This document shows positions 55,041 through 63,255 of a DNA stretch of 64,000 nucleotides, in pieces (positions within the stretch are counted from its first letter, which is position 1; every line of letters begins with the position of its first letter). A program made the translations under genes and the position numbers. The notes under the pieces are model-generated. The model did no database searches. It was given only the letters and a program-made list of their open reading frames with translations, and was not told the origin of the DNA. The stretch comes from Burkholderiaceae bacterium (GTDB lineage: Bacteria; Pseudomonadota; Gammaproteobacteria; Burkholderiales; Burkholderiaceae_C): positions 124,001-188,000 of the forward strand of contig JAIESX010000006.1 of the NCBI GenBank assembly GCA_019745555.1, written 5' to 3'.

Positions 55041-55352
55041 TCAGCGCGCCTTGCGCGCCTGGCTGGCCACCCATTTGCTGGCAAAGGCGGGCAGTTCGCC
55101 CAGGCGGCGCGTCAGCTCGGTGCCGCTGCTGGTGAGCAGGTAGCCTTCGCTGCCGTGACTGAGCAGGCCGGCCTCGCGCAGTTCCTTGATACGGGTGTTC
55201 AGGGTGTTGGGAGTGATGCCGCCCACGCTGTCCTGCAGCAGGCGGAAGGTCTGGGCGTGGCCGTCGCGCAGGGCCCACAGCACGCGCATCGCGTAGCGTG
55301 ACTCCAGCAGAGCCAGCAACTGGCCGATGGCGGCATTTTCCTTGTAGCTCAT
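55041..55352 (-). CDS. HxlR-family winged-helix regulator
   Basis: A 103-aa DNA-binding protein. The winged helix is seen as ALLESRYAMRVLWALRDGHAQTFRLLQDSVGGITPNTLNTRIKELREAGLL, with the ITPNTLNTRIKEL recognition helix typical of HxlR/MarR-like regulators, and EGYLLTSSGTEL as wing. Regulated target unknown; no divergent gene lies at its upstream side (the next gene upstream is MarR on the same strand). Confidence 0.82.
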   Translation of the reverse strand: MSYKENAAIGQLLALLESRYAMRVLWALRDGHAQTFRLLQDSVGGITPNTLNTRIKELREAGLLSHGSEGYLLTSSGTELTRRLGELPAFASKWVASQARKAR

Positions 55353-55536: not shown

Positions 55537-55998
55537 TCAAATATAGATTTTTCTGAGCAGCTGAATCAGCGTCTTGCGCTCGGCGGGGCTGAGGCGTGAG
55601 GTGGCGGCGTCTTCCAGTTCGGAGGCCGTGACCTCGGCCTGCTTGACCAGCTTGCGCCCCGCGGGCGTGAGGTGCAGGCCCATGGCGCGGCCGTCGTGCG
55701 GGTGCGGCCGGCGGGTGATCAGTTCGCGCCGCTGCAGCTGGTTGATCATGCCGACGAGGTTGGGCGGCTGGATGTTGAGCGTGCTGCAGAGCTGGCGGGA
55801 GGTGATGCCCGGGTTGTGGGCGATCAGCGAGAGCACCGAGAACTCCACCGGCTTGAGCCCGTAGACCGCCATGTTGCGCAGGAAGGCGTCAACGATCACC
55901 AGCGTCGCGCGTCGCGCGTTGTAGCCGACCAGACCTTCGAGGTAGCTGGTGTCGACCTGTTCGACGGCGGTGTCGGGGGCTGGCTTGCGGGTGGCCAT
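55537..55998 (-). CDS. MarR-family transcriptional regulator
   Basis: A 153-aa dimeric winged-helix protein. It has the MarR pattern FSVLSLIAHNPGITSRQLCSTLNIQPPNLVGMINQLQRRELITRRPHPHDGRAMGLHLTPAGRKL, recognition helix and wing with the conserved DGRA region. MarR proteins often sense CoA-thioesters of aromatic acids. It is the last gene of the catabolic unit, 3 bp after the acyl-CoA dehydrogenase, so likely represses its own operon through the site at 62291-62309; this link is inferred. Confidence 0.9.
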   Translation of the reverse strand: MATRKPAPDTAVEQVDTSYLEGLVGYNARRATLVIVDAFLRNMAVYGLKPVEFSVLSLIAHNPGITSRQLCSTLNIQPPNLVGMINQLQRRELITRRPHPHDGRAMGLHLTPAGRKLVKQAEVTASELEDAATSRLSPAERKTLIQLLRKIYI

Positions 55999-56001
55999 GG
56001 T

Positions 56002-57681
56002 TCAGGCGGCGGTGGTTCCGGTTTCCGGGATTTGTTGTTCGATGATCTGCATGCGCAGGCCGAATTCTGGCAGCACCCAGCTGTGCAGCGCGCGCGCCGG
56101 TGTCTGCCAGTCGGGCAGGGCGCTGCCGATGCGCGCACCGGCCCAGCCCAGCAGGGCCAAGGCCAGGGCCTGCAGAAAATCGTCGGCCACCCAGTAGGGC
56201 AGGTCGGCCTGGCTGGCCGAGGCCTGAGTCAGGCGGCGGGCCAGCGCGCGCAGCTGGTCGAAGCGCTGCTGCACGTCGGCGGGCAACGGCGTTTCGGATG
56301 CGAGCGTGTCGAGCAAGGCGCCCAGAGCCGTGCCGCCGTCGGGCAGCACCTTGCGCACCAGCAGGTCGATGGCCTGGATCTCGTTCGTGCCCTCGTAGAT
56401 CATGGTGATGCGCGCGTCACGCACGATCTGCTCGATTCCCCATTCGCGCACATAGCCGTGGCCGCCGAAGACCTGCAGGCATTCGCTGGCGCCGAGAAAA
56501 CCCTGACGCGTCCAGGCGGTCTTGAGCACGGGGGTGACCAGGCTGCACCAGCGCTGCGCGGCATCGCGGCGCGCTGCGTCCGGGTGGTGCTTGATCATGT
56601 CCAGCTCGATGGCCGTGCGGTAGGCCAGCAGGCGGCCGCCGTCGATCCAGGCGCGCTGGGTGTGCAGGATGCGCTGGATGGCCGGGTGGTCTTGTATGAG
56701 ACTGGTCTCGCTGGCGCCGGGCGCGCGCATCTGGCGCCGCTCGGCGGCGTAGGCGCTGGCCTTCTGCCAGGCGGCTTCGAGCAGGGCGATGCCCTGCAGG
56801 CCCACATGCAGGCGCGCCGCGTTCATCATCACGAACATGGCGTTGAGGCCCTTGCCGGGCTCGCCCACGAGCCAGCCCGTGGCGTCCTCAAAGCGCAGCA
56901 CGCAGGTGGGGCTGCCGTGCAGGCCCATCTTTTCCTCGATGCGCTCGCAGTGCACGCCGTTGCGTGCACCGTCGGGTAGCAGTTTGGGCGCGAGGAACAG
57001 CGACAGCCCCCTGGGGCCGGGCGGGGCATCGGGCAGGCGTGCGAGCACCAGATGCACGATGTTGTCGGTCAGGTCATGCTCACCGCCGGAGATGAAGATC
57101 TTGCCGCCGCTGATGCGATAGCTGCCGTCGGCCTGCGGCAAGGCCTTGGTGCGCACCAGGCCCAGGTCGCTGCCGGCGTGGGCTTCGGTGAGGCACATGG
57201 TGGCCAGCCACTCGCCGGTGGCGATCTTTTCCAGGTAGCGCGCCTTCAGCTCTTCGCTGCCGTGGTGCTTGAGGCACTCGTAGGCGCCGTGCAGCAGACC
57301 GGGGGCCATGGTCCAGCCGTGGTTGGCAGCCGTCAGCATTTCATAGAGCACGGCTTCGAGCACGGCGGGCAGGCCCTGGCCGCCGTCTTCGGGCGCGCAG
57401 GCCAGCGCGGGCCAGCCGGCCTGCCAGAAGGCCTGGTAGGCGGCGCGGAAACCCGGGGGCATGGTCACACGCCCCGCTTCGAAGTGCGCACCAGTCTCGT
57501 CGCCCACGCGCTGCAGCGGCGCAATCTCGCTGGCGACGAACTTGCCGGCTTCGTCCAGCACCTGCTGCATCAGATCGGCATCGGTCTCCGCGTAAGGCGC
57601 CAGGCTCTGCAACTGCTGCGGGGCCTGCAGGGTCTGGAACAGAAGGCGGCCGATGTCGTCGAGGCGGGGCTGGTAATCCAT
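56002..57681 (-). CDS. Acyl-CoA dehydrogenase of the catabolic cluster
   Basis: A 559-aa flavoenzyme that introduces a 2,3-double bond in an acyl-CoA. The N-terminus MDYQPRLDDIGRLLFQTL, MCLTEAHAGSDLGLVRTKAL (FAD contact), KIFISGGEHDLTDNIVHLVLARL, and C-terminal YVREWGIEQIVRDARITMIYEGTNEIQAIDLLVRK with the catalytic-base Glu are present. It belongs to the long acyl-CoA dehydrogenase branch, paralogous to the gene at 45.6 kb. ATG 57681 is used; the track start 58002 runs into the Bug gene. Tandem hairpins separate it from Bug; MarR follows after 3 bp. Confidence 0.92.
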   Translation of the reverse strand: MDYQPRLDDIGRLLFQTLQAPQQLQSLAPYAETDADLMQQVLDEAGKFVASEIAPLQRVGDETGAHFEAGRVTMPPGFRAAYQAFWQAGWPALACAPEDGGQGLPAVLEAVLYEMLTAANHGWTMAPGLLHGAYECLKHHGSEELKARYLEKIATGEWLATMCLTEAHAGSDLGLVRTKALPQADGSYRISGGKIFISGGEHDLTDNIVHLVLARLPDAPPGPRGLSLFLAPKLLPDGARNGVHCERIEEKMGLHGSPTCVLRFEDATGWLVGEPGKGLNAMFVMMNAARLHVGLQGIALLEAAWQKASAYAAERRQMRAPGASETSLIQDHPAIQRILHTQRAWIDGGRLLAYRTAIELDMIKHHPDAARRDAAQRWCSLVTPVLKTAWTRQGFLGASECLQVFGGHGYVREWGIEQIVRDARITMIYEGTNEIQAIDLLVRKVLPDGGTALGALLDTLASETPLPADVQQRFDQLRALARRLTQASASQADLPYWVADDFLQALALALLGWAGARIGSALPDWQTPARALHSWVLPEFGLRMQIIEQQIPETGTTAA

Positions 57682-57773: not shown

Positions 57774-58760
57774 TCAGGACTCGGCGGTGAAGCCGACCTT
57801 CTTGACCAGCGGACCCCAGCGCTTGAACTCGGACTCGAGCGAGGCGCGCATGTCCTGCATCGTGCTGCCGCCAGAGGCCACCAGGCCCACGTTGGACAGG
57901 CCATCGATCACGCTTTGGTCGCGCAGCGCGGCACGGATGGCGCTGTTGGCGGCGTTGAGCACGCTGGCCGGCGTCTTGGCCGGGGCGAAGAAGCCGAACC
58001 ACTCCTCGGCCACGATTTCCGGATAGCCCAGCTCGGCGAAGGTCGGCGCGTCAGGAGCGGCCACGCGCTTGGGCGCGGAGACGGCCAGGATGCGCAGCTT
58101 GCCGGCGCGGGCGTGGGCCAGCGAATCGCCCGTCGGCGTCACGCAGGCGGCGATCTGGCCACCGACGGTGTCGTTCACGGCCGGCAGCGAGCCACGGAAG
58201 GCGATGTGCTGGAAGGTGATGCCGGCGTTGATGCCGAACAGCGAGCCCACGAAGTGCGGCATGGAACCCGCGCCCGGCGAGCCGAAGCTGGATTTCTCCG
58301 GGTTGGCCTTGGCCCAGGCGACGAAGTCCTGCAGGGTCTTGACGCTCTCGGGCACCAGCGGGCCGATGGCCAGGGCGAAGATCATCTGCGCGCCGATGGA
58401 AATGGGCGCGAAGTCCGCCATCGTGTAGTTCATCTTGCTGTACACGTGCGGGTAGATGGTCAGGGCCGAGGCCTGGGCCAGCGTGAGCACGGAGCCATCG
58501 GCCGGCGAGCCCTTGAGCGTCTCCAGCACGATGCGGCCACCGGCGCCGGGCTTGTTCTCGACCACGGCGTTGTTGCGGGCATAGGGCGTGCCGCCCAGCT
58601 TGTCGGCCACACGGCGGGCCAGGCTGTCGCCCGCGCTGCCGGCGGGGAAGCCGTAGTAGATCCGCGGCTGGGCCACCTGGGCCAGGGCGGCCAGAGGTTG
58701 CAGCGCGGCCAGGGCGGTGGCGCTGGCGGCGGCTTGAACGAAGGTGCGACGTTGCATCAT
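57774..58760 (-). CDS. Bug-family tripartite tricarboxylate transporter substrate-binding protein
   Basis: A 328-aa periplasmic binding protein of the Bug (TctC-like) family. The leader MQRRTFVQAAASATALAALQPLAALAQ has twin-Arg character and a signal peptidase site near AALA-Q. Mature signatures are RIYYGFPAGSAGDSLARRVADKL, NKPGAGGRIVLETLKGSPADG and GYPEIVAEEWFGFFAPAKTP. These proteins bind carboxylates, often without a fixed transport partner; no TctA/TctB membrane genes are in the window. It lies between the SDR and acyl-CoA dehydrogenase, so it likely binds the cluster's acid substrate. Confidence 0.9.
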   Translation of the reverse strand: MMQRRTFVQAAASATALAALQPLAALAQVAQPRIYYGFPAGSAGDSLARRVADKLGGTPYARNNAVVENKPGAGGRIVLETLKGSPADGSVLTLAQASALTIYPHVYSKMNYTMADFAPISIGAQMIFALAIGPLVPESVKTLQDFVAWAKANPEKSSFGSPGAGSMPHFVGSLFGINAGITFQHIAFRGSLPAVNDTVGGQIAACVTPTGDSLAHARAGKLRILAVSAPKRVAAPDAPTFAELGYPEIVAEEWFGFFAPAKTPASVLNAANSAIRAALRDQSVIDGLSNVGLVASGGSTMQDMRASLESEFKRWGPLVKKVGFTAES

Positions 58761-58810: not shown

Positions 58811-59575
58811 CTAGCGCGGTGCCATGCGCAGCGCGCCATCGAGGCGGATCACCTCGCCATTGAGGTGGCCGTTGCTGACGATGTGGGCGGCGAGCTGGGC
58901 GAATTCCTCCGGATGGCCCAGGCGTTTGGGGAAGGGGATGGAGGCGGCCAGCGAGGCCTGCACTTCCTCGGGCAGCTCCTTCATCAGCGGTGTGGCGAAG
59001 AGGCCGGGTGCCACGGTGCAGACGCGGATGCCGTGCTGGGCCAGATCGCGTGCCATGGGCAGGGTCATGCCGACCAGGCCGCCCTTGGACGCGCTGTAGG
59101 CCTGCTGGCCGACCTGGCCGTCGAAGGCGGCGACCGAGGCGGTGAACATCATCACGCCGCGTTCGCCGTCTTCGAGCGGATCGAGTTTGACGCAGGCTGC
59201 GGCAAACAGGCGGCTGATGTTGTAGCTGCCGATCAGGTTGACATTGATGACGCGCGTGAAGTCTTCCAGCGGCGCGGGCTGGCCGTCCTTGCCGACGATG
59301 CGCTTGGCCGTGCCGATGCCGGCGATGTTCATGAGGATGCGCGCCGGGCCGTGGGCGGCGGCGGCCTTGGCCAGTGCGGCCGTCACGCTGTCGGTGTTGG
59401 TGATGTCGCAGACGCAGGCGACGCCGCCAATCTCGGCCGCAACCTTCTCGGCGAGCGCGGCGTTCACGTCGAGCACGGCGACCCTGGCGCCCAGGCGTGC
59501 CAGTTCACGCGCCGTGGCTTCGCCCAGGCCGGAGGCGCCGCCGGTGACGAGAGCTGCTTGTCCTTGGATCTTCAT
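58811..59575 (-). CDS. 3-hydroxyacyl-CoA dehydrogenase, HSD10-like SDR
   Basis: A 254-aa SDR close to type II 3-hydroxyacyl-CoA dehydrogenase (HSD17B10). Signatures are ALVTGGASGLGEATARELARLGARVAVLDVN (NAD-binding Rossmann with acidic Asp ending beta-2), NIAGIG, MMFTASVAAFDGQVGQQAYSASKGG (catalytic Ser and YxxxK) and PGLFATPLMKELP, then NGEVIRLDGALRM. It should oxidise a 3-hydroxyacyl-CoA to 3-ketoacyl-CoA with NAD. The ligase gene lies 8 bp upstream; the Bug gene 50 bp downstream. Confidence 0.93.
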   Translation of the reverse strand: MKIQGQAALVTGGASGLGEATARELARLGARVAVLDVNAALAEKVAAEIGGVACVCDITNTDSVTAALAKAAAAHGPARILMNIAGIGTAKRIVGKDGQPAPLEDFTRVINVNLIGSYNISRLFAAACVKLDPLEDGERGVMMFTASVAAFDGQVGQQAYSASKGGLVGMTLPMARDLAQHGIRVCTVAPGLFATPLMKELPEEVQASLAASIPFPKRLGHPEEFAQLAAHIVSNGHLNGEVIRLDGALRMAPR

Positions 59576-59583
59576 ACGGTGGT

Positions 59584-61455
59584 TCAGGCTTGGGGTTTGA
59601 GGATGCCGGGGGCGGTGTCGTCGTGCAGGGCCTGCACGAGCGCATCACGGTGCTTGAGCACGGCGCGCTGGTTGATCGAGCCCTTGTCGGTGACCTCGCC
59701 CTTGTCGATCGAGGGCGGCTCGGCGAGCAGCAGGGCGCGCGCGATGCGGTTGGCGCTGCCGGTGGCCTGGCGGGCCAGTTCGTTGATCACGGCCTGGAAG
59801 CGGTCGCGCACGGGGGCGCTGGCCAGCACGTCCGGCCACGGTGCGTCGGCCGGCAGGCCGCTGACGCTGCGGCAGGCGGGCGAGGGGAAGATCAGCGCGC
59901 CGACCTCCTTCATGTTCAGGCCCGTGAGCACCACGTCCTGCACATAGGGCGCGCCGGTGACGATGACCTTGGCGCGCATCGGGCCCACGCTGACGAAGGT
60001 GCCGGTGGAGAGTTTGAAGTCCTCGGCGATACGGCCGTCGAATTTCAGGCCGCGGTGGATGTCCTGCGGGTCGATCCACTGTACGGCGTCGCCGGTGCAC
60101 AGATAACCTTCCTCGTCGAAGGCCTCGCGCGTGGCCTGCTCGGAGCGCCAGTAGCCCGGCGTGACATTGGGGCCCTTGTAGCGGACCTCGGTCTTGCCGT
60201 CCACATCGACGAGCTTAAGTGTCATGCCGGGCACGGGCGTGCCGATGTCGCCGGCTTTCACATTGGGGCTGTTGGTGAACATGGCCGAGGGCGCGGACTC
60301 GGTCATGCCCAGGCCGGTGGCCATGACGATGCGCTCACCCACTTCGGCTTCGGCAGTCTGGTGCAGGCTGTCCCAGACGGGCTGGGCCAGGCCGGCGCCC
60401 GAGTAGAAGAACATGCGCACACGAGACAGCAGCTTCTTGCGCAGCGCTTCGTCGGTCTTCATGGCCTGGGCGATCATCTCGAAGCCCGTGGGCACGTTGA
60501 AGTACAGCGTGGGGGCGATCTCGCGCAAATTGCGCAGGGTCTCGCCGATGAGCGCGGCCGTGGGCTTGCCGTCGTCGATGTAGAGGGTGCCGCCGTGCAT
60601 CAGCGTCAGGCCCACGTTGTGGTTGCCGCCGAAGGTGTGGTTCCAGGGCAGCCAGTCCACGAAGATGGGCGGGGCCTCGGCGATCACCGGCATGGACAGC
60701 GTGATCTGCTGCAGGTTGGCGCACCACATGCGGTGCGTGTTGATCACCGGCTTGGGCATCTTCGTGGAGCCCGAGGTGAAGAGGAACTTGGCGATGGTGT
60801 CGGGTCGCACGGCGTGCATGGCCGCGTCCACCACCTCGGTCGCGGCGGTGTTGCGCAGCGCATCAAAGGCCGTGGTCTGCCGGCCGTCGATGCTGCCCTG
60901 GGCCAGCACGACCTCGATGTCGCTGCTGACCGTGGCCTGGATCGCCTTGCCGTAGCGCGCGCCATCGGCGGCGTAGACCAAGCCTGGGGTGAGCGTGGCC
61001 AGCACATGCTTGAGTTTGTCGTAGTCCTGGCTCACCGTGGCATAGGCCGGCGAGACGGGGCAGTACGGGATGCCGGCGTAGATGCAGCCCAGCGAGAGCA
61101 GGGCATGTTCCAGCGTGTTCTCGCTCAGGATCACCACGGGGCGCTCGGCGCTGAGCTTGCGGTCCAGCAGGGCCTGGCCGATACGGCGTGCGGCTTCGAG
61201 CGCCTGGGCGTAGCTGATGCGCTGCCATTCGCCGGTGCGGCCTTCGCCGAGCTGTTCGCGGCGTGCCATGAAGGTGCGCCCGGGTTCGGCCTCGGCCCAG
61301 TGGACCAGGAAGTCGCTGAGGCGGCGCGCGTAGGCGCCCAGGGGCAGCTCGGCCTGCACATAGCGGGTGCCGGGTGCACCTTCACGCACCGTGACGCGGG
61401 TCACGCCAAAAGGCACGGGGCGGTAGCGCGGGGAGGTCTTCGTCGTCTCGCTCAT
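59584..61455 (-). CDS. fcs: Feruloyl-CoA synthase-type acid-CoA ligase
   Basis: AMP-forming acyl-CoA ligase of the feruloyl-CoA synthase family, 623 aa. Order of motifs: GVTRVTVREGAPGTRYVQAELPLGAYARRLSDFLVHWA, the AMP-loop KFLFTSGSTKMPKPVINTHRMWCANL (A3, with Lys in SGSTKMPK where Gly is common), VDWLPWNHTFGGNHNVGLTLMHGGTLYIDDG, GLGMTESAPSAMFTNSP, YKGPNVTPGYWRSEQATREAFDEEGYLCTGDAVQW, and a C-terminal domain with KLSTGTFVSVGPMRAKVI. It activates an aryl- or phenylpropenoid-type carboxylic acid; ferulate is the family archetype, not proven here. Confidence 0.87.
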   Translation of the reverse strand: MSETTKTSPRYRPVPFGVTRVTVREGAPGTRYVQAELPLGAYARRLSDFLVHWAEAEPGRTFMARREQLGEGRTGEWQRISYAQALEAARRIGQALLDRKLSAERPVVILSENTLEHALLSLGCIYAGIPYCPVSPAYATVSQDYDKLKHVLATLTPGLVYAADGARYGKAIQATVSSDIEVVLAQGSIDGRQTTAFDALRNTAATEVVDAAMHAVRPDTIAKFLFTSGSTKMPKPVINTHRMWCANLQQITLSMPVIAEAPPIFVDWLPWNHTFGGNHNVGLTLMHGGTLYIDDGKPTAALIGETLRNLREIAPTLYFNVPTGFEMIAQAMKTDEALRKKLLSRVRMFFYSGAGLAQPVWDSLHQTAEAEVGERIVMATGLGMTESAPSAMFTNSPNVKAGDIGTPVPGMTLKLVDVDGKTEVRYKGPNVTPGYWRSEQATREAFDEEGYLCTGDAVQWIDPQDIHRGLKFDGRIAEDFKLSTGTFVSVGPMRAKVIVTGAPYVQDVVLTGLNMKEVGALIFPSPACRSVSGLPADAPWPDVLASAPVRDRFQAVINELARQATGSANRIARALLLAEPPSIDKGEVTDKGSINQRAVLKHRDALVQALHDDTAPGILKPQA

Positions 61456-61481: not shown

Positions 61482-62264
61482 TCAGCCCTTGCTGACTTTG
61501 GCGGCCTTGCCATCAAGGAAGGCGCGCACGCGTTGTTTGGCTTCGGGCGCGCTCTGGGCAATGGCGGCCATCATGGCTTCGGTGAGGAAACCCTGGTCGG
61601 CCGGCTGTTCGGCAATGCGGGGCAGGGCGTGGATCAGGGCGTAGTTGGTCAGTGGCGCGTTCTGCGCCACACGCACGGCCAGCTCGTAGGCCTTCTCGAA
61701 GGCCGTGCCCTGGGGCACGAGGTACTGGGCGAAACCTACTTTCTCGCCGTCAGCAGCGTTGTAGACGCGGCCCGTCAGCATCATGTCGGTCATGCGCGCG
61801 GCGCCGATCAGGCGCGGGATGCGCACCGCACCGCCGCCACCCACGAAGATGCCCCGCGAGCCCTCGGGCAGGGCGTAGAAGGTGGATTCGTCGGCCACAC
61901 GGATGTGGCAGGCGCTGGCCAACTCCAGGCCGCCGCCCACGACCGCGCCGTGCAGCGCCGCGATGACCGGCACCGGGCCGTACTGCACCTGCTCCAGAGC
62001 GGCATGCCACATGCGTGAGTGGTGCAGGCCCTGGCCGGCGTCACGTTCTTTCAGTTCGCTCAGGTCCAGGCCGGCGCAGAAGTGTTCACCCTCGCCGTCG
62101 ATGACGGCAGCGCGCACGCCCTCGGGCATGTTCTCGAACAGCTGGCGGATAGCCAGGATCAGGCCGTCGTTGAGCGCGTTGCGCTTGGCAGGCCGGGTGA
62201 GGCGGATCACGGCGATTTCCTGGTGTTCGCCGCGGCGCTCGAAGTGGATGTCAGGGTTCTTCAT
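61482..62264 (-). CDS. Enoyl-CoA hydratase/isomerase (crotonase) family protein
   Basis: A 260-aa crotonase. Oxyanion-hole residues lie in GEGEHFCAGLDLSELKERD and AALHGAVVGGGLELASACHIRVA; the usual Glu in GLDEIRVA-type catalytic position is not clear, and LPEGSRGIFVGGGGAVRIPRLIG replaces the standard PEVGLGL region. Expected to hydrate the enoyl-CoA formed after CoA ligation or to cleave it. ATG 62264 (MKNPDIHFERR) is used; the track start 62315 includes the operator. First gene of the minus-strand set; fcs follows by 26 bp. Confidence 0.88.
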   Translation of the reverse strand: MKNPDIHFERRGEHQEIAVIRLTRPAKRNALNDGLILAIRQLFENMPEGVRAAVIDGEGEHFCAGLDLSELKERDAGQGLHHSRMWHAALEQVQYGPVPVIAALHGAVVGGGLELASACHIRVADESTFYALPEGSRGIFVGGGGAVRIPRLIGAARMTDMMLTGRVYNAADGEKVGFAQYLVPQGTAFEKAYELAVRVAQNAPLTNYALIHALPRIAEQPADQGFLTEAMMAAIAQSAPEAKQRVRAFLDGKAAKVSKG

Positions 62265-62286
62265 CTTGCGTTTCTTTCGGGAATCG

Positions 62287-62315
62287 ATTATGGTTATGAA
62301 ATATAACCAATTCAA
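62287..62315 (-). promoter_or_regulatory. Catabolic operon promoter with operator in the spacer
   Basis: On the minus strand, -35 TTGAAT (62315-62310), 17-bp spacer, -10 CATAAT (62292-62287). The inverted repeat TGGTTAT-GAAAT-ATAACCA (62291-62309; 7-bp arms) occupies the spacer almost exactly. A plus-strand -10-like TATAAC (62302-62307) for the amidohydrolase lies in the same element, so one bound regulator could silence both directions. Confidence 0.7.
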
Positions 62316-62350
62316 GCAAGCGCCGCCTGCTTTTCATCAGTGTTTACCCT

Positions 62351-62372
62351 AGGCCACCGGATCCGGTGGCCT
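62351..62372. repeat. 22-bp perfect palindrome in the amidohydrolase leader
   Basis: AGGCCACCGGATCCGGTGGCCT is fully palindromic over 22 bp. It lies 16 bp upstream of ATG 62389 and right before the GGAG Shine-Dalgarno. It can form a strong RNA hairpin or a second operator. Confidence 0.6.
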
Positions 62373-62388: not shown

Positions 62389-63255
62389 ATGGACCACAAG
62401 AACCTCATCGCCATCGATGTCCACACGCACGCCGAAGTCAGCTGCTGGAACCCCTTCGACAACTATGGCGAGGAGTACGACCGCGCCGCAGACAAGTATT
62501 TCCGCTCCAACCGCCGCCCGACGATTGCCGAGACGGTGGCCTATTACCGTGAGCGCAAGATCGGCCTGATCATGTTCACGGTGGACAGCGAGGCCCAGCT
62601 GGGCCGTCGCCGCATCCCGAACGAGGAGATTGCCGAGGCCGCCAAGGCCAACAGCGACATGATGATGGCCTTTGCCAGCATCGACCCGCACAAGGGCAAG
62701 ATGGGCGCGCGCGAGGCGCGCCGCCTGATCGAGGAGCACGGCGTCAAGGGCTTCAAGTTCCACCCCACGGTGCAGGGCTATCACCCCTACGACAAGATGG
62801 CGTGGCCCATCTACGAGGTGATCGCCGAGTACAAGATGCCGGCCATCTTCCACACCGGCCACAGCGGCATCGGCAGCGGCATGCGCTGCGGCGGGGGGCT
62901 GCGCCTGGAGTACAGCAACCCCATCCATCTGGATGACGTGGCGATCGACTTCCCCGACATGCAGATTGTGATGGCGCACCCGAGCTGGCCCTGGCAGGAC
63001 GAGGCCTTGAGCGTGGCCATGCACAAGCCCAATGTCTGGATCGACCTGTCGGGCTGGAGCCCCAAGTACTTTCCCAAGCAGCTCGTGCAGTACGCCAATA
63101 CCCTGCTCAAGGACCGCATGCTGTTCGGCAGCGACTATCCGCTGATCACGCCCGAGCGTTGGATGAAGGATTTCGAGGAAGCCGGCTTCAAGCCCGAGGT
63201 CATGCCCGGCATCCTCAAGGACAACGCGGTGCGACTGCTGGGCTTGGCGCCCTGA
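62389..63255 (+). CDS. Amidohydrolase-2 family metal-dependent hydrolase
   Basis: A 288-aa TIM-barrel protein of the amidohydrolase 2 (ACMSD-like) family. Metal ligands are visible as HTHAEVS near residue 11, HPTVQGYHPYD, IFHTGHSGIG, VMAHPSWPWQDEA and FGSDYPLITPERW (catalytic Asp). Relatives catalyse decarboxylation or C-C/C-O hydrolysis, e.g. 4-oxalomesaconate hydratase, gamma-resorcylate decarboxylase. It is divergent from the crotonase-fcs set across the shared operator. Reaction unknown; C-C cleavage in place of a thiolase is a speculation. Confidence 0.87.
   Translation: MDHKNLIAIDVHTHAEVSCWNPFDNYGEEYDRAADKYFRSNRRPTIAETVAYYRERKIGLIMFTVDSEAQLGRRRIPNEEIAEAAKANSDMMMAFASIDPHKGKMGAREARRLIEEHGVKGFKFHPTVQGYHPYDKMAWPIYEVIAEYKMPAIFHTGHSGIGSGMRCGGGLRLEYSNPIHLDDVAIDFPDMQIVMAHPSWPWQDEALSVAMHKPNVWIDLSGWSPKYFPKQLVQYANTLLKDRMLFGSDYPLITPERWMKDFEEAGFKPEVMPGILKDNAVRLLGLAP

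Follow-up and report, generated by a model that had tools for sequence, protein, structure and literature searches.

What does an exact inverted repeat do between the -35 and -10 elements of a catabolic promoter, which regulator would bind it, and does it serve one or both of the transcription units that diverge from this point? The question arises in a 64,000-nt stretch of DNA from a Burkholderiaceae bacterium (hereafter the window), where the minus strand from 62315 to 62287 reads TTGAAT-TGGTTATATTTCATAAC-CATAAT, so that positions 62287-62315 comprise the full promoter, with the -35 hexamer TTGAAT at 62310..62315, assigned by sequence and conservation, and the -10 hexamer CATAAT at 62287..62292. 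That a palindrome spans the whole spacer of this minus-strand promoter had been stated in a preliminary description of the locus, and the sequence confirms it: the 17-bp spacer (62309-62293) is completely filled by the exact 19-bp repeat TGGTTAT-GAAAT-ATAACCA (62291..62309; core GTTAT-N5-ATAAC), a predicted operator that enters the -10 hexamer by 2 bp. The crotonase start codon lies at 62264, and, judging from the -10 element, transcription would begin near 62280 and leave a short leader. Dyads with 7-bp arms and a 5-bp gap number 19 in the GC-rich window, against about 4 expected for uniform bases, and this one is the only AT-rich member of the set; a given 19-mer with the local base composition would form a palindrome with a probability of 8.5e-5. 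No further match was found in the window at up to three mismatches (0.16 expected), nor a second copy in a 3-Mb scan of the organism's own genome at up to one. It is conservation, described below, that makes the repeat more than a chance occurrence.

The promoter heads a series of minus-strand genes, separated by short gaps, that runs from crotonase to MarR. Its first gene encodes a crotonase-family enoyl-CoA hydratase (61482..62264, PRK08150; nearest solved relatives 3hin, 1e-98, then 4izb/4izc), followed by an AMP-binding, AMP-forming acyl-CoA synthetase (59584..61455, PRK12582-like) that is probably a hydroxycinnamate-CoA ligase, a short-chain dehydrogenase (58811..59575), a TctC/Bug substrate-binding protein (57774..58760), an acyl-CoA dehydrogenase (56002..57681, taken to start at MDYQPRL) and a CouR-like MarR-family regulator (55537..55998), the proposed binder of the palindrome. 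The presence of a MarR gene in the operon, noted earlier, is thus borne out, at its 3' end and as the last gene of the suggested unit, and a minus-strand gene for an HxlR-family regulator (55041..55352) lies downstream of it. Diverging on the plus strand is an amidohydrolase_2 gene of the CouO superfamily (62389..63255). This gene set is the one expected of a CoA-dependent, beta-oxidative route whose substrate would presumably be a hydroxycinnamate or phenylpropanoate. Just upstream of the amidohydrolase gene, at 62352-62371, stands a separate, perfect 20-bp palindrome, GGCCACCGGATCCGGTGGCC, which even the nearest relative (L035) does not share.

Comparison loci were drawn from a scan of genome contigs, from 201 family genomes and from 60 regions of more distant family members. 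The palindrome, which the preliminary description proposed to look for upstream of orthologous clusters, is indeed present there: of 171 loci, 121 have the 29-mer comprising -35, palindrome and -10 ahead of the orthologous crotonase gene with at most four mismatches, and some genomes are represented more than once in this set. Among 102 unique promoters the inner-arm bases TTAT and ATAA are invariant bar one base, while variation is seen at the outer GG/CC pairs (G/A, C/A/T) and is greatest in the 5-bp centre; every position of TTGA in the -35 element is kept in at least 83 of the 102. Within these sites the two arms show no covariation beyond expectation, so that the dyad symmetry rests on invariance. 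Retention of the core (at most one mismatch, within 300 bp upstream) follows crotonase identity, from 82/85 loci at 80% or above and 18/20 at 74-80% to 6/7 at 68-74% and 3/28 below 68%, with 0.8% in shuffled upstream regions. A matrix built from the site returned 142 matches over about 2.5 Mb of flanking DNA, versus 5 in block-shuffled sequence, nearly all of them at this promoter.

The protein encoded at 55998-55537 carries a winged-helix MarR domain (Pfam MarR_2, 8.6e-16; MarR, 1.2e-12; both above cut-offs), and among solved proteins its best match is CouR of Rhodopseudomonas palustris (RpCouR, E 2e-18), followed by CouR of Rhodococcus jostii RHA1 (4e-8). Against NF053777, the NCBIfam model for the Saro_0803 family, it scores 78.8 bits, below the curated cut-off of 200. 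In RHA1 CouR, Arg36 and Arg38 of the wHTH are arginines that serve ligand and DNA contacts, and the RHA1 type is marked by Arg or Lys at one or both positions; as read off the alignment, the window protein has Lys at the first and Val at the second. RpCouR and FerC have neither arginine (PMC4737184). The MarR gene accompanies the pathway closely: 68 of the 75 genomes whose crotonase reaches 67% identity have it, versus 4 of 126 others, and wherever MarR and crotonase share a contig they lie within 15 kb of each other (56/56 pairs, median 8 kb), although the position of marR shifts between loci, from the operon end to beyond the amidohydrolase or thiolase gene. Six of the seven genomes without marR were examined (the seventh being G180): four (G023, G030, G125 and G156, with loci L142, L148, L136 and L147) also have no good GTTAT-N5-ATAAC core, and for the other two, G009 and G041, the assembly is incomplete.

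The type of MarR protein and the sequence of the operator also change together. Where the core is GTTAT-N5-ATAAC, the MarR recognition segment [PA]PN[LMF]V is near-constant; the core is present with at most one mismatch in 64 of 67 loci with a PPN[LMF]V-type MarR, in keeping with the earlier expectation that the palindrome persists where the MarR gene does, but in only 2 of the 19 whose MarR is of another type. The three exceptions of the right MarR type (L061, L127, L146) have the core with two mismatches. Locus L136 of G125 retains the same pathway genes together with a MarR protein of 34% identity from a different clade and a perfect operator of different sequence, AGTTCT-AAAAC-AGAACT, and on this pairing it is a natural repressor/operator swap. 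A further locus, L152, has TGCTTAA-N5-TTAAGCA in its promoter, with no MarR match in the fetched stretch. Fisher values for the MarR/operator association overstate independence, because the loci are related, and are descriptive only; the argument is carried by the swaps and by distant clusters. The latter came from a survey of 399 genomes of the phylum for the nearest crotonases, which outside the family include a set from genomes of 6-9 Mb that, from their likeness to R. palustris proteins, would be alphaproteobacterial. Four of these that were examined (G481, G414, G398, G567) and G483, from a related genus, have RpCouR-like MarR genes 9-10 kb away, and in them a TTGACT-like -35 element is directly followed by GTTAT-AAAAC-ATAAC or a near variant of it; related dyads (ATTAT-CAAAT-ATAAC) precede some of the marR genes in such clusters.

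Identification of the palindrome as a CouR-type operator is therefore strongly supported at the level of sequence, its site, geometry, conservation, linkage to marR and co-change with MarR type all being directly observed. Very probably it is the operator of the MarR repressor whose gene lies 6.3 kb downstream within the operon; like CouR, this protein would sense a thioester of the hydroxycinnamoyl-CoA type. A CoA-ester is a reasonable candidate for the ligand in view of the gene neighbourhood and of R. palustris CouR as the nearest protein of known structure. Binding and repression, as well as the ligand and the role of the CTAGGG box discussed below, we infer to operate as follows. Without substrate, a MarR dimer would occupy the spacer between -35 and -10 and exclude RNA polymerase; basal ligase would produce a little CoA-ester, which would release MarR and allow transcription of the operon for crotonase, CoA ligase, dehydrogenase and acyl-CoA dehydrogenase. 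With marR inside the operon that it represses, the arrangement would amount to negative autoregulation, and the CTAGGG box, a second conserved element, would bind an activator.

Two other readings of the palindrome bear on this assignment. The block might be kept merely as a strong core promoter with incidental symmetry, and the -35 and -10 elements are indeed highly conserved too. The most conserved bases are, however, TTAT and ATAA in the middle of the spacer, and the core persists where the hexamers are missing or its spacing to the start codon is different; it recurs as a second copy at the promoter of the divergent thiolase gene and in distant clusters whose promoter layout is not the same. 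In L130, L133, L135, L139 and L140 the palindrome is retained and the -35/-10 frame lost; because the operator thus outlives the promoter layout, core-promoter conservation cannot explain the palindrome, and this reading is hardly credible. Alternatively, the site could belong to another local regulator, most plausibly the HxlR-family protein (55352-55041), whose gene stands beside marR both in the window and in 23 loci that bear the operator, about 40% of those with both operator and MarR. Yet 31 loci with operator and MarR have no HxlR match in the fetched DNA, no HxlR appears among the matches of the Acidovorax-type loci that retain the site, and the operator sequence follows the MarR clade, swaps included, which makes an HxlR operator very unlikely.

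A further question is whether the MarR operator also governs the divergent unit. The preliminary description saw in the palindrome the expected geometry for a repressor of both divergent units, its right arm covering a plus-strand -10-like hexamer; on such a reading a MarR dimer bound to the single operator would also block a plus-strand amidohydrolase promoter. Amidohydrolase-type loci do have a single operator, the window does contain the hexamer (TATAAC), and in RHA1 a single CouR box serves two divergent promoters (PMC4737184). The hexamer is, however, merely the dyad mate of the opposite arm: across 65 distinct amidohydrolase loci it begins with T in just 25 and has no -35 element at the right distance, and no conserved plus-strand hexamer pair was found there for the amidohydrolase promoter. 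Moreover, in 12 Acidovorax/Variovorax-type loci (L059, L063, L065, L067, L068, L072, L074, L086, L099, L102, L105, L107) the divergent amidohydrolase gene is replaced by a thiolase-like gene with a second operator of its own, at a distance of 80-81 bp, which lies between a weak opposite-strand -35 (ttcata) and -10 (taaaat) in almost the same register. As judged from these sites, the spacer-operator design recurs with one operator per promoter, and thiolase in place of amidohydrolase suggests a swap of the last beta-oxidation step. The earlier claim accordingly stands for the spacer operator of the catabolic promoter and for the presence of the hexamer, and not for single-site control of both units, which we consider rather doubtful; MarR may still repress the amidohydrolase gene by roadblock or looping.

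A second conserved element lies upstream of the -35 hexamer. The CTAGGG box, which reads CTAGGGTAAACACTGA on the minus strand (62337..62352), is probably an activator site; 36 bp separate the first T of its TAGGG from the -35, and cTaGGGtAAacaCcgAg occurs upstream of the -35 in nearly every close locus. Of 106 promoters, 91 have this same 36-bp spacing, 8 more a spacing of 35-38 bp and 5 one of 25-26 bp, the last being one helical turn nearer the -35. Perfect copies of CTAGGGNAARNCCTAG are several-fold enriched in the family relative to a reversed control. On our reading of the sequences, the genes that they precede encode PEP carboxykinase, a cNMP/CBS protein, several regulators and an acyl-CoA ligase whose gene diverges from that of a Crp/Fnr protein. 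Looser versions of the pattern, counted in the organism's own genome, were no more frequent than the control. L136 and L151, whose repressor and operator are different, retain a box-like sequence. A candidate binder is a Crp/Fnr-type regulator, whose gene is found in 82 of 101 family genomes (for example in L209, L224 and L231, and in the organism itself at G000:C53:134404-135096, L238) and is divergent from an acyl-CoA ligase gene in several loci; a box-like sequence with at most two mismatches lies upstream of the Crp/Fnr gene in 8 of 30 cases (27%), versus 2.7% for shuffled sequence. CrbR/ErdR was considered as a binder and set aside, the published ACTU motif (e.g., TACTACCATCGTCGAAT) being unlike the box, and a literature search with the box sequence strings found no paper. 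It is conceivable, and proposed here tentatively, that the promoter is a two-input switch, in which a swappable CouR-type spacer operator is combined with an activator box that works from one fixed helix face, 36 or 25-26 bp from the -35. The box would then serve a catabolic regulator, so far undescribed, that Comamonadaceae-type bacteria share across the family and that is perhaps of Crp/Fnr type.

Repressors of the MarR/CouR kind that act on a catabolic promoter through an inverted-repeat operator are in themselves a well-known, ordinary kind of switch. What this locus offers is a precise and testable predicted operator for a widespread putative repressor of phenolic-acid catabolism in Comamonadaceae-type betaproteobacteria, of which the literature searched, with curated regulon databases outside its scope, yielded no account in these bacteria. 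Such an operator could be used for regulon annotation and for CoA-ester biosensors. The locus set also constitutes a natural experiment in repressor-operator co-evolution, in which one pathway promoter is found with matched repressor/operator swaps while the upstream activator-like box is retained in at least some of the swap loci.

Known regulators place this proposed switch in context. FerC of Sphingobium SYK-6, HcaR of Acinetobacter ADP1 and Agrobacterium fabrum, and FerR of P. fluorescens are MarR regulators of hydroxycinnamate catabolism answering hydroxycinnamoyl-CoA esters (PMC10458429); the ADP1 and P. fluorescens systems differ in controlling a non-beta-oxidative route. CouR of RHA1 (PDB 3fm5/5cyv) is a MarR repressor of a beta-oxidative hydroxycinnamate cluster that includes the amidohydrolase CouO, the beta-ketoacyl-CoA-cleaving enzyme of the last pathway step, and it is released by p-hydroxycinnamoyl-CoA from a promoter-overlapping inverted repeat whose half-sites are 5 bp apart (PMC4737184). 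The window shares with this system the 5-bp-gap inverted repeat overlapping a promoter and a MarR gene linked to CoA ligase, enoyl-CoA hydratase and amidohydrolase, but the half-sites differ (cATTGA in RHA1, GGTTAT in the window), the RHA1 box overlaps the -35, and the identity of RHA1 CouR to the window MarR is low. The closest solved relative is CouR of R. palustris (PDB 6c28), which controls couAB. Genomes with this type of regulator, whose linked proteins are about 37% identical, share the window's GTTAT-N5-ATAAC core at the promoter of their crotonase gene, although in their clusters the operator lies downstream of the -35 towards the start region, whereas in the window it fills the spacer.
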